Assembly (NCBI RefSeq): GCF_000504305.1
Contig: NZ_KI632512.1
Location: 2,044,250-2,108,249, forward strand
Direction of reading: 5' to 3'
Source: Nitratidesulfovibrio termitidis HI1
GTDB lineage: Bacteria; Desulfobacterota; Desulfovibrionia; Desulfovibrionales; Desulfovibrionaceae
Length of the DNA stretch: 64,000 bases
The position numbers were made by a program, and so were the translations under genes. Positions 35,223-39,418 of the stretch are shown piece after piece. The first letter of the stretch is position 1; each line of letters starts with the position of its first letter. Under the pieces are notes generated by a model. It ran no database searches. It was not told the DNA's origin and saw only the letters and a list, made by a program, of their open reading frames with translations.

Positions 35223-35438
35223 CCAGCCGCAGCGACCTGCACCCGGAAGACAAGCGGAAGTTGACACCGGGCACGTCGCCGCTCACCGGAACAGGCCTAT
35301 TCGGGCAACCACCTGCGACATATCTATCTAATTACCATATTATGCATATCTACCTCGAACTGCACCTAAACTGTTTAGTCAAGCCGCTACAGTTGTGCCA
35401 ACTAATTAGTTACGATAAAAGGGCAGAGAGGATTTCCC

Positions 35439-38400
35439 ATGCATATGCCCCTTTCCGAAGAATGGCTTAAACGCCTGAAGCTCGGCCCACGTGTGGGCCG
35501 AGAGTTGATTACCGAGGCGACACAAGCCAAAGGGCATTCTTATGCCGAAATTTTGTGCAACACACTGGAGGCTGGGGCTTCCGGTGTCTTCTGCTTGGAT
35601 GGTCGCCCCTGCGCTGCTGTGGCGCTACCTCCACAACACCACAACGCCGAGTGGTTGATAGAATTGCATACCGCCCTGTGGAACCAGGGTGAGTTAGATT
35701 TTTTACTCCTGTTGTTTCACGACAGAGTAGAGATCCACACCTTAGATGCCAAACCTCATGCGTGCTGGGAAGCCCTCAATACCGGTCACGAAGCCCTATC
35801 TCCGACCTTACAGGCATCTCTGAGAATTCTTGAACAGGCTGGTGAAATTGAAGACATCATCACCGGCCTGGAGTCTGGTCGCTTTCTGGAAAACATAAAG
35901 GGAGGGCTTAATACTGAAGCCAAAGTGGATGCTGCTCTAATTCGTGATTTGGAGGGTGCGCGTGAGACGCTTTTGAAGGCTGAAAGAGACAAAAATCCCG
36001 ACCAGCCATCCAAAGAACTTGTCGAGTGTGTGCACGACGTTCTGCTTCAAGCCATGTTCCTTTTATACCTTGAAGATCGTGGGATCATTGAGGTCGGGTA
36101 TATTCACGCCTATGGTAATGAACGGGTGGGTAAGTTGCACGAGCTATTACGTGGTTACCCCTCGGATTTTTGCCGTCTGTTGACGCGTCTGGACTGCGAA
36201 CTCAATGGTGGCCTGTTCAAGAAAAATCCGCTGTGGGAAAAACACGCTAGCATCTTGGCTGACTTCCTGCAGGGTGAGCGCAACTTCCGCACCGGACAGG
36301 GACGGTTATTCCGGCTGTACCGTTTTGAGTACATTCCTGTAGAGTTGCTGAGTGAAGTATATGACCGTTTCCTCGGCTCCGAGGGCGGAAAGAAAGAGCA
36401 GGGGGCCTACTACACCCCCCGTCGCTTAGCTGCCTTGGTCGTGGAACAGGCGTGGGAATCGTTGCGCAAACACCTTGATGCCGGTCGGCTGCCTCGGGTT
36501 TTGGACCCAAGCTGCGGTTCAGGCATCTTTCCCGCTCTCCTTTTCCAGCGCATCGCTGGATATCTCACCACAGCCTCTTGGGATGATCTCAAGCTGATCA
36601 CAGAGAACTTGTATGGGGTAGATATCAACCCGACTGCAGTGCGTATCAGCGCTTTTTCCTTGTATCTGGCCCTGCTGCACCGGGCTGAGCCCAAAGATCT
36701 GCGCACACTCATGGACAAGGGAAAAGTTCTGCCGGAGATTTTGGGTACAACGCTGCTTCAGGGCAATTTTTTCGAGTATTCAGCCGAGAAACAATTCGAC
36801 TGTATCATCGGCAATCCCCCATGGGGTGGTTCCAAACAGAATGCCGGAGCCACAGGCGAACAGTGGGTGCGAAAAAACAAATACCCAAAGCCATCTCAAG
36901 GAGAGCGCTCCTGGCCGTTTATCTGGAAAAGCTTGACTCACTTATCGCCGGAAGGAACCCTGGCCCTGCTGCTCCCGTCCACGGGACTATTCCTCAACGA
37001 TGTTACAAAAAGCCTGACTCACCTTCTAGATGTCGCACGCTTGGAAAAATTGGTGGATATTTCTGATCTGCGGCATGTATTATTCAAGGATGCTGACTTT
37101 CCGGCTTGTATCCTGACGGCTACACGAGCGAAAAAAAATGAGCCCCATACATTCGTCTACGTTTGCCCCAAAGCTGACCTGAACGCGACACGAGGAGACC
37201 GCATCACCCTCGCTCCGGGAGATAAACATCTTATCCACTCCCACGCGTTTGCGAGTGATTCTGTTTCCACAACACAGCGATTGATGTGGTTCAGCCCAAA
37301 GGAACGGCACCTGCTTTCCTACCTGGACACCCTGCCTACCCTGCAGGATCTGCCTTTATTGGAAACAGACGAAGCGCGGAAAAGATTCCCCGATGGCATA
37401 CGCCCTGAGTGGGGAATGGGGTTAGGATTTCAAAAAGACACGGGAAAAGAAGAAAAAAACAAAAAACCTTCTATTGCCGAATTACTACGTCTTCCCCATG
37501 CAGATGTAAAAAAAGATTTTACTCCATGGATTCAGCTCGTCAGTCCCGCGTGGCAACCCTATGGCACAACACAGGTATACAGAAGACGCTTCCCAGAAGG
37601 ATATACAGCTCCTCATATCGTCATGCCATGCAGTCTCCGTGCCGACTGCAGGCTACGCGCGGGCTACGCCGAAGAGAACTTCAGCTTTAATAATAGCGTA
37701 ACGGCCATTACGGTGCCGGACTCAAATGCAGGCCGCGCTGCAGGGAAATTCCTTACCGCATTCCTGAATAGCGCCTTTACTGCTTGGTTTCTGGCGGCCT
37801 GCGGCCTTGCGGTTAATCGGCCTCGGTTCACCCCTTCACTCCTCCTTGCGCTTCCTTACCCTAACCCTGAAGACTTGCCCGATCCGAAGCGCGCTGAAGC
37901 CATCCGCGCGACCGTTATCGCCAAAATGGATGCACTAATGCAGCAGGCGCAGGCCAAGCAGGGAGCAACGCTTACTTCCTACGATGACTTTCCTACGCCA
38001 CTGGATGTCCGCGAATTGGATAACCTGATTTTCGCCTACTTGGGACTGCGGCCCGAGGAAATCGCAATCATCTGGGAAAGCCTCGAACTGGTGCGCAAAG
38101 GCACCCAACCCACGCCAAGCGGCAACCTCCCGGAATTATGGAAAGCGTCCGAATCAAAACATTGGGACACGTATTGCGCAGCCTTGAACGAGGCATTGGG
38201 CGCGTACATGGCTGAAGGCGACAGGGTGGAGACCCGACCACTCGGCTATTCCAACGATGTGGTTGTCGTGCAGGTGACCTATCGGCAGATCAAGGATGCA
38301 AACGAGCCTGCGCATACGCGGCAACAAGAGGCCGTGAGACTGCAAGAATTACCCAGAGCCCTACTGCGAAGCCTAGAGCGCCCTCTCGGGGGTAATATTT

Positions 38401-38558
38401 ATTTGCAGCGCTACGCCATGGTGTTCTCTAAAGAAAAGATATTTTTGTTCAAACCTAGACAGCGACGTTTTTGGCTCACGAGTATGGCCCATATGGATGC
38501 CGACCACGTTCTGGACAACCTGTTGCGGGCTGCGGAACCCGTCAGGAGTCCGGCATGA
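35439..38558 (+). CDS. Large Eco57I-like N6-adenine DNA methyltransferase (possible type IIG-like R-M protein)
   Basis: Protein of 1039 residues. A region of about 300 residues without a recognised catalytic motif precedes an N6-adenine methyltransferase core. GAYYTPRRLAALVVEQA and the SAM-binding motif LDPSCGSGIF (about 354-362) are followed by the catalytic NPPW at 459-462. A long C-terminal part resembles the target-recognition region of Eco57I/type IIG enzymes (NPPWGGSKQN ... SWPFIWKSLTHLSPEG, and later RPRFTPSLLLALPYP). Base composition is much lower in GC than the neighbours, so it was probably acquired. Start ATG at 35439 has AGAGG upstream. The stop overlaps the next gene (ATGA). It is likely to methylate a specific DNA site for self-protection. 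DISARM and BREX also contain large adenine methylases, but no partner genes of those systems are present. Confidence 0.85.
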   Translation: MHMPLSEEWLKRLKLGPRVGRELITEATQAKGHSYAEILCNTLEAGASGVFCLDGRPCAAVALPPQHHNAEWLIELHTALWNQGELDFLLLLFHDRVEIHTLDAKPHACWEALNTGHEALSPTLQASLRILEQAGEIEDIITGLESGRFLENIKGGLNTEAKVDAALIRDLEGARETLLKAERDKNPDQPSKELVECVHDVLLQAMFLLYLEDRGIIEVGYIHAYGNERVGKLHELLRGYPSDFCRLLTRLDCELNGGLFKKNPLWEKHASILADFLQGERNFRTGQGRLFRLYRFEYIPVELLSEVYDRFLGSEGGKKEQGAYYTPRRLAALVVEQAWESLRKHLDAGRLPRVLDPSCGSGIFPALLFQRIAGYLTTASWDDLKLITENLYGVDINPTAVRISAFSLYLALLHRAEPKDLRTLMDKGKVLPEILGTTLLQGNFFEYSAEKQFDCIIGNPPWGGSKQNAGATGEQWVRKNKYPKPSQGERSWPFIWKSLTHLSPEGTLALLLPSTGLFLNDVTKSLTHLLDVARLEKLVDISDLRHVLFKDADFPACILTATRAKKNEPHTFVYVCPKADLNATRGDRITLAPGDKHLIHSHAFASDSVSTTQRLMWFSPKERHLLSYLDTLPTLQDLPLLETDEARKRFPDGIRPEWGMGLGFQKDTGKEEKNKKPSIAELLRLPHADVKKDFTPWIQLVSPAWQPYGTTQVYRRRFPEGYTAPHIVMPCSLRADCRLRAGYAEENFSFNNSVTAITVPDSNAGRAAGKFLTAFLNSAFTAWFLAACGLAVNRPRFTPSLLLALPYPNPEDLPDPKRAEAIRATVIAKMDALMQQAQAKQGATLTSYDDFPTPLDVRELDNLIFAYLGLRPEEIAIIWESLELVRKGTQPTPSGNLPELWKASESKHWDTYCAALNEALGAYMAEGDRVETRPLGYSNDVVVVQVTYRQIKDANEPAHTRQQEAVRLQELPRALLRSLERPLGGNIYLQRYAMVFSKEKIFLFKPRQRRFWLTSMAHMDADHVLDNLLRAAEPVRSPA

Positions 38559-39244
38559 CCGAAGCGGAAATTGCGCGTCGCTGGCTTGAGCGTTTTCCTC
38601 GCTTGCATCCCGATACCGTTATGAAACAGTTTCTACCACTGTTGGGGGCGGCCTGGGAGGCAAAAAAGGTGCTTTTCACCGAAGCTCACTGGGAAGATTT
38701 TATAACCAACACGCTTGTCGCCGATGTCATACAGCGGGTTCATCAAGCAAAGGATATTCCTTGGAGCGTACGCCCTCAAGTCCCAATACTGGTGAAAGGC
38801 GACGATGGCACTGGAGAGACCATTGGCCGTTGCGATCTGATCATTGATCTTGGTGGTAACAGGGAATACATCCACGAATGTAAGCGCCTTTGGCCAGAGG
38901 GTGAGAAACGCACCTTCACCACGTCGGCGCGGCTTTATGTGCAAGATGGACTGCACCGCTTTCTTCACCCCTCCAAGGATCACCCCACGCCGCATGCCCA
39001 ATATACCACATGGCAGAATTTTGCTGGTATGATCGGCTACGTTATGGACGGTCGGACACCCCAGGCCTGCAAGGCCGTCCAAGCGGCCATCAATAATCAC
39101 GCCCCGCCACAGGAGATGACCGCATCTTGCCCTTCAGCCTGTCGAGTTGAGGGGGCTCTCGACTTTCAATCCACCCATCAAGATTGCACGGGCAGCACCG
39201 TACGGACACACCACCTTTTTCTTGGGCTAGCTGGAAGAGGCTAA
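38555..39244 (+). CDS. PD-(D/E)XK-like small protein, candidate nuclease partner
   Basis: Protein of 229 residues translated from an ATG that overlaps the methyltransferase stop. A helix containing Glu47 (HWEDFITNTL) is followed by CDLIIDLGG with Asp94, then EYIHECKRL with Glu108 and Lys110. D-x13-E-x-K matches the PD-(D/E)XK active-site pattern, and a later YTTWQNFAGMIGYVMDG resembles the helix often following it. This suggests a DNA nuclease paired with the methylase, either a restriction subunit or an accessory. No family name was recognised. Base composition is like the methyltransferase gene, so both arrived together. An alternative role as specificity or regulatory protein cannot be excluded. 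Confidence 0.65.
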   Translation: MTEAEIARRWLERFPRLHPDTVMKQFLPLLGAAWEAKKVLFTEAHWEDFITNTLVADVIQRVHQAKDIPWSVRPQVPILVKGDDGTGETIGRCDLIIDLGGNREYIHECKRLWPEGEKRTFTTSARLYVQDGLHRFLHPSKDHPTPHAQYTTWQNFAGMIGYVMDGRTPQACKAVQAAINNHAPPQEMTASCPSACRVEGALDFQSTHQDCTGSTVRTHHLFLGLAGRG

Positions 39245-39352
39245 CCCGCTTAGCCCATCAGCGGACCCACCCTCCTCCTGCTCAATATTTATGATCTACG
39301 AATACTAGCAAAGGGGCTTTTCGGATGTTGGTGAATATCCCCAATAAATGAG

Positions 39353-39388
39353 GAGTCGGTAGTCGTTGTATTCAACGACTACCGACTC
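39353..39388. terminator. Perfect 16-bp hairpin between the R-M genes and the tRNA cluster
   Basis: GAGTCGGTAGTCGTTG (39353-39368) and its exact complement (39373-39388) enclose the loop TATT. It lies between convergent units: the island genes on the plus strand and the tRNA genes on the minus strand. TTCT follows on the plus side and an A/T-rich run on the other. Confidence 0.7.
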
Positions 39389-39418
39389 TTCTGGGGGTGT
39401 ATACCCCGACTTGAAAAA

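Follow-up and report, generated by a model that had tools for sequence, protein, structure and literature searches.

The window analysed here is a stretch of 64,000 nucleotides from Nitratidesulfovibrio termitidis HI1 (contig NZ_KI632512.1, positions 2,044,250 to 2,108,249), and it carries a low-GC island of two genes. The first encodes a large N6-adenine DNA methylase of type IIG-like build (P0001), and the second a small protein (P0002) that is predicted to be a PD-(D/E)XK nuclease subunit. The two open reading frames (ORFs) overlap by ATGA (Table 1). The GC content is 0.51-0.55 inside the island, against 0.62-0.71 outside it, as counted in 1000-base segments over 25-50 kb; segments straddling the island edges show 0.54-0.60. 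Upstream lies an ORF that ends at 35222 and has HxlR as its final portion (Pfam, 4.6e-30), and downstream are the genes for tRNA-Asp, tRNA-Asp and tRNA-Val, starting at 39419. Homology to congeners runs up to 35309 in G001 and up to 35212-35219 in G005, G006 and G007, and restarts at 39417-39419 in all four. The island was therefore delimited, approximately, by these points of break and resumption. An earlier preliminary description, made from the sequence alone, had noticed the same ATGA-coupled pair between an HxlR gene and a tRNA cluster, and the ORFs, the GC profile and the congener breaks bear it out.

The small protein has a match in none of seven congeners (0/7), and a search of 198 near genomes gave three matches, namely the own genome, G041 of the same family, and a false hit in G175 (L003), which is a short unrelated ORF. 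A search of the own genome revealed no further copy of either protein.

Table 1. Features of the island (coordinates of the window) and, in the last row, examples of an upstream gene at related loci (coordinates of each locus)
Feature	Position	Strand	Evidence
Low-GC island of foreign origin, with leader, both genes and a terminator-like hairpin, between the HxlR gene and the tRNA-Asp 3' end	35310..39416		GC drop; congener homology break
N6-adenine DNA methylase, 1039 aa, type IIG-like chain with degenerate N-terminal domain	35439..38558	+	Pfam, PADLOC, AlphaFold2 (AF2), PDB match
N-terminal domain (aa 30-135), putatively for docking; elements in nuclease-like order, catalytic residues missing	35526..35843	+	AF2, profile alignment
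Methylase catalytic core, aa 303-568	36345..37142	+	Pfam, motifs
Small protein, 229 aa, predicted PD-(D/E)XK nuclease subunit	38555..39244	+	Invariant residues; AF2 model
Invariant Glu47 codon, start of helix 47-64	38693..38695	+	Alignment, AF2
Invariant Asp94 codon, D of PD-(D/E)XK	38834..38836	+	ORF position, alignment
Glu108-Cys109-Lys110 codons, E-x-K	38876..38884	+	ORF position, alignment
19-nt inverted repeat, terminator-like hairpin between operon and tRNA genes	39350..39391		RNA fold -34.9 kcal/mol, z -8.6
Upstream gene of about 158 aa, examples	L004 4376-4852, L006 4510-4986, L008 4499-4954, L011 3916-4452		

The methylase nature of P0001 is evident from its Pfam matches, N6_Mtase (3e-20) and Eco57I (1.6e-18), both of which are above the Pfam cut-offs. 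Motif I, DPSCGSG (aa 356-362, within LDPSCGSGIF), and motif IV, NPPW (aa 459-462), are near-invariant in 92 aligned relatives, in agreement with the Eco57I-like assignment first made from these motifs. Set A5 was made of 76/92 large proteins. DPSCGSG precedes NPPW, and motif I before motif IV is the gamma order. The PADLOC model of type IIG enzymes, PDLC03623, is matched at 2.2e-68 over residues 145-1025, and it also recognises 8/8 members of a set of large-protein relatives (A2). For the confident AF2 model of P0001 (predicted local distance difference test, pLDDT, 87.9), the top PDB match is the type IIG enzyme BpuSI (E 5.5e-16, TMq 0.31, 1003 columns), followed by BrxX and then CamA. TaqI_C, as a candidate C-terminal target recognition domain, reaches E 0.039 only, below the cut-off. 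At the other end, the N-terminal domain is modelled as helix 36-44, strands 49-53 and 56-62, helix 70-83 and strands 88-92 and 96-101. P0001 has six Pfam matches at E<=1, none of which is a nuclease family.

In the small protein, the residues E47, D94, E108 and K110 are invariant in 86/86 relatives; Asp94 and the Glu108-x-Lys110 pattern stand exactly where they had first been read. The AF2 model, again a confident one (pLDDT 85.7, predicted template modelling score, pTM, 0.85), consists of helix 47-64, strands 71-81, 87-100 and 103-112, helix 121-136 and strand 156-163. This is the PD-(D/E)XK order, and the four residues are at their expected places; the protein thus does not model as an evident non-nuclease fold, the outcome that would have spoken against the first proposal, though the matches to known nucleases are weak. 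The C-terminal part is also conserved (H208, H220). In the PDB fold list, non-significant throughout, SSO0001, SfsA and SduA, which we take to be PD-(D/E)XK proteins, hold ranks 2, 9 and 11. Similarly, the non-significant list of viral folds (BFVD) has an Mrr-domain protein at rank 2 and named PD-(D/E)XK proteins at ranks 3, 5, 14 and 19. When the small-protein profile was compared with the BpuSI nuclease, the alignment touched the D and the E-x-K, at E 5.8. Among 85 of the 86 relatives (set A4; L083 was omitted as its coordinates and scores are identical to those of L073), weak Pfam matches were to PDDEXK_9 in 4/85 (best 0.017) and HSDR_N_2 in 2/85 (best 0.12), and PADLOC and NCBIfam matched one or two members only, with models of mixed kinds. 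Hence, the assignment of the small protein as a PD-(D/E)XK nuclease is supported by its residues and element order, and the fold and profile matches agree with it but are not significant.

The two genes are held together across several phyla. The family was defined by a score >500 with a hidden Markov model (HMM) built from the family itself, which gave 103 rows, 100 of them distinct; among these, L004 and the window were initially not recovered by the methylase search. The small gene lies directly downstream, in the same order and on the same strand, in 94/95 assessable distinct family methylases (5 more could not be assessed). When genome contigs were searched with the large protein alone and the best 80 of 265 relatives were kept, the small gene followed in 78/80 loci; in the two exceptions, the contigs stop 2 bases past the methylase ORF. 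The small gene starts at or before the methylase stop in 76/86 loci, and within 11 bases in 9 of the remaining 10, with the caveat that the start codon was chosen as the one nearest to the methylase stop, a choice biased toward overlaps. The hosts of these 86 loci are 55 Pseudomonadota, 8 Planctomycetota, 7 Acidobacteriota, 8 from five other phyla, 7 without a named phylum and 1 without origin. Viral loci carry the small gene in 7/11 cases; of the other four, L018 and the distant L024 have no partner, and L020 and L022 offer only 2 and 588 bases downstream. L024 is below the family score, and its N-terminus resembles a cis nuclease by eye, yet no Pfam nuclease is found there.

The small-protein profile was also run alone against 395 genomes of the window's phylum. 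It gave 10 matches, 8 of which adjoin a methylase of the split (two-gene) form; another, G330/L158, is false, the protein being FHIPEP, and G255/L157 is a fragment, apparently at a contig end. Given the 94/95 pairs and the four residues kept in 86/86 small proteins, the pairing is therefore beyond chance. It was also observed that divergent methylases with a small partner exist (L133 in G539, L136 in G240, L138/L156 in G502), so that the aligned core does not span the whole family. One genome, G295 (L132, L148, L149), has a broken copy, in which the methylase lies in two pieces that overlap and a stop disrupts the small gene.

Run against these 395 genomes, the large-protein profile also recovered more distant single-chain (cis) type IIG enzymes, making 19 genomes in all at E<=1e-30. 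Eight of nine such ORFs show a PDY...E-x-K motif by eye, and the ninth begins too late. One of these enzymes, P0006 (L146), gathered more when used as the query, namely 22 distinct long ORFs in 40 genomes. The motif is present in 18/22 of these with strict spacing and in 20/22 with relaxed spacing; L160 and L164 begin after it. These enzymes are the nearest partnerless group found. The small gene stands beside 0/14 of those that could be assessed (8 more could not). Pfam HSDR_N is found in both cis members scanned (P0006 8e-10, L140 2e-10), and is found neither in P0001 nor in the split members L130, L133, L135 and L136.

The fate of this motif in the split family was read at the aligned columns, as a free pattern gave chance matches elsewhere in the family proteins. 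The E column (62) is acidic in 0/103 family rows and the K column (64) is lysine in 0/103, and in the window's protein S48, A62 and P64 occupy the D, E and K positions. A working nuclease in the methylase N-terminus, which had been named as the finding that would overturn the idea of a separate nuclease, is rejected on these columns, set against 20/22 in the cis group, and on the absence of any Pfam nuclease from P0001. The split and cis methylases are homologous, and their N-terminal domains are collinear; this collinearity is a stronger argument for kinship of the domains than are the profile P values. Against the profile of the cis nuclease domain, the small protein scored P 0.19, no better than alignment windows of the methylase (0.075-0.68). 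On this ground, we reject an origin of the small protein by plain fission of the type IIG nuclease domain. As it is no detectable copy of the lost cis domain, the small protein looks recruited, and a distant common origin of the two is conceivable.

For the methylase core, a quick tree was built from 66 picked family and mid rows and the 22 distinct cis rows, with long branches flagged and with the partner labels of L137 and L138 taken from L153 and L156. One branch (99*) separates 60 partner-bearing rows from the 22 cis rows, so that one change suffices; it becomes 2 changes if L018 and L024 are counted as partnerless. Five of the 40 cis-bearing genomes (G364, G380, G402, G423, G502) also carry a split methylase, and the alternation therefore goes by locus. 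The small and large proteins co-diverge, with r 0.93-0.95 over 58 non-redundant pairs.

From these findings, we consider it likely that the pair is a two-gene restriction-modification (R-M) system that descends from a type IIG enzyme, with the nuclease acting in trans and probably docked on the methylase. The methylase would use its own C-terminal part to recognise a DNA site, and would protect the host copies by adenine methylation. Its N-terminal domain would have lost the catalytic residues of the nuclease and been retained as a domain. The small PD-(D/E)XK protein, made from the coupled operon, would probably dock on the methylase, with the degenerate domain as a possible contact, and would cut foreign DNA in which such sites are unmethylated. 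The sequences show the pair, its conservation, the motif of the small protein and the loss of that of the methylase. They support the nuclease role suggested before for the small separate gene, as a predicted activity; docking, a shared site and a defensive function of the pair are inferred.

A number of points weigh against this proposal. P0002 itself has no match in Pfam, PADLOC, NCBIfam or PHROGs, and no fold match at E<=0.001 is found for it in the PDB or in BFVD; rank 1 is a glyoxalase-family protein in the PDB and an unnamed protein in BFVD (0.0028). The motif shared by the 22 cis enzymes is not independent evidence, since they were gathered with one cis query; the absence of the partner is independent. 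In the split family, the D column (48) is still aspartate in 16/103 rows, and L135 alone fits a loose form of the motif pattern. The profile comparison of the split N-terminal domain with the cis nuclease domain is modest (65 columns, P 0.0033, HHalign probability 10%, 2.9% in global mode), and in another version of the alignment that domain is the best of 19 alignment windows at P 0.027, with the next at 0.056. Co-divergence is equal across all methylase regions, and so it does not indicate a docking site. L018 (5001-7835, on a viral contig), whose C-terminus is divergent, lacks a partner within the 3951 bases that follow it, and is the sole assessable exception to the pairing.

Other explanations of the pair also have to be weighed. 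An ordinary type II R-M pair, in which the small nuclease finds the same site alone and the methylase merely protects it, would follow the classical type IIP layout of two separate proteins acting independently (PMC3936762), and the conserved C-terminal part of the small protein could bind DNA. However, a protein of about 210-260 aa would seem to have little space for a recognition domain, and its partner is a type IIG-type chain that keeps a domain at the place of the cis nuclease and co-diverges with it. We regard such a pair as unlikely.

More doubtful is a non-cognate role, in which the small nuclease is modification-dependent (type IV-like) or an unspecific effector and the methylase serves as its sensor or switch. 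The strict order of methylase and then nuclease, and the lack of a partner beside an intact cis nuclease, agree more with restriction than with this role, which we deem improbable in spite of the Mrr-domain (type IV) protein in the non-significant viral fold list and of the Gabija-like helicases and OLD-like proteins near a few loci, for which there was no control. That four nuclease-motif residues are invariant in all 86 divergent small proteins suggests selection for catalysis. This speaks against an orphan-like methylase of epigenetic function, accompanied by an inactive accessory protein and causing no restriction, an idea that the methylases without an N-terminal motif would permit and to which we give the lowest chance of all.

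The proposed R-M system with its nuclease in trans resembles several known systems in part. Type IIG enzymes combine cleavage and gamma-class methylation in one chain, by the definition in PMC4081073. The pair shares with BpuSI and MmeI a large adenine methylase chain of similar layout, but it departs from that one-chain definition, as the cis motif is gone and the nuclease-like protein is separate. The single-chain HSDR_N-type methylases of the same phylum (P0006 and kin) differ from the split family in keeping the motif and in lacking the small gene. In the type IIH system AhdI, a separate, type IIP-like restriction endonuclease (REase) is found beside an unusual type I-like methylase (PMC4081073). 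A separate nuclease next to the methylase, here a predicted one, is common to both; the small protein here, unlike the REase of AhdI, has no match to any such family in Pfam, PADLOC or NCBIfam.

The closest precedent comes from Haloferax volcanii, where the separate PD-(D/E)XK protein HVO_A0006 was proposed, as one option, to complete the N-terminus-less type IIG methylase HVO_A0237 in a split complex (PMC4389544). Both cases would join a separate PD-(D/E)XK nuclease to a type IIG methylase, and the complex is itself hypothetical there. According to that source, HVO_A0006 is a rare fragment homologous to the type IIG N-terminus, is encoded apart from the methylase and has transposition genes on its flanks. 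In contrast, the pair described here is a conserved operon, its methylase retains a degenerate domain, and no kinship of the small protein with the type IIG N-terminus is detectable.

As in type I R-M, where HsdR acts in trans, nuclease and methylase are on different polypeptides. Unlike type I and type III systems, the island holds two genes and, by the ORF list, no helicase-sized partner or separate specificity (S) subunit, as had been stated in the preliminary description along with the lack of BREX and DISARM partners. BREX has a related large methylase, PglX/BrxX, the second fold match; however, the NCBIfam BREX models score far under their cut-offs, and neither PglZ nor another BREX partner is on the island. 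A BREX fragment is ruled out, the genome's only PglZ match (G000:C1:3088810-3089343) being about 1 Mb from the window at 2.04-2.11 Mb. The MZB/DUF1998 domain marks DrmB, and a DISARM fragment is ruled out in the same way, as the only MZB match is at 2874640-2874879 (about 2.87 Mb) and none is beside the methylase. These PglZ and MZB domain proteins possibly belong to a separate BREX-like or other defence locus.

It may further be that such pairs form a widespread R-M class, in which the type IIG nuclease has moved out, the old domain has become a docking or gating pseudo-nuclease, and an independently recruited PD-(D/E)XK subunit cuts in trans, guided by the recognition part of the methylase. 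Its members would be annotated as an ordinary single-chain type IIG enzyme and a hypothetical protein. We put the chances of this wider idea at about even. If true, a restriction nuclease would have switched naturally from cis to trans, and the family would offer a testable case of a pseudo-nuclease retained for possible docking. In a published model, separate restriction and modification enzymes arise from a type IIG gene via duplication and domain loss (PMC6158711); in this family, the domain loss is visible, but the new nuclease seems not to be a duplicate. The small proteins would also make up a nuclease family to which none of the libraries searched has a match. PADLOC has a model for the large protein, as a single-chain type IIG enzyme, and none for the small one; a 'type IIG' call via the methylase model can point to the wrong active site. 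Literature searches, covering open-licence papers, listed no title that names such a methylase/nuclease pair.

The surroundings of the pair vary from locus to locus. A MerR-like or unnamed gene of about 158 aa, or a relative of it, lies upstream in 38/91 loci, often overlapping the methylase start, and it may be a control protein; no such upstream ORF is seen in the window's ORF list. Of 96 chosen neighbour ORFs, 82 were scanned; the 25 families at the head of the listing contain GajB-type helicases (5), OLD-like TOPRIM proteins (4), conjugation coupling proteins (3) and terminases (2), a purely descriptive count made with no control. A second large methylase-like ORF was observed downstream on the same strand in L006 (8991-13058), L038 (10056-14186), L049 (9747-13274) and L101 (9650-12616).

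The insertion site beside tRNA-Asp is a variable spot. At the same site, between the HxlR gene and tRNA-Asp, G001 (L128) has a different insert, a 276-aa Methyltransf_11-type ORF. A hairpin also precedes tRNA-Asp in the congeners, and its sequence differs from that of the window's inverted repeat. At this post-operon hairpin, the terminator-like site was called on the minus strand.

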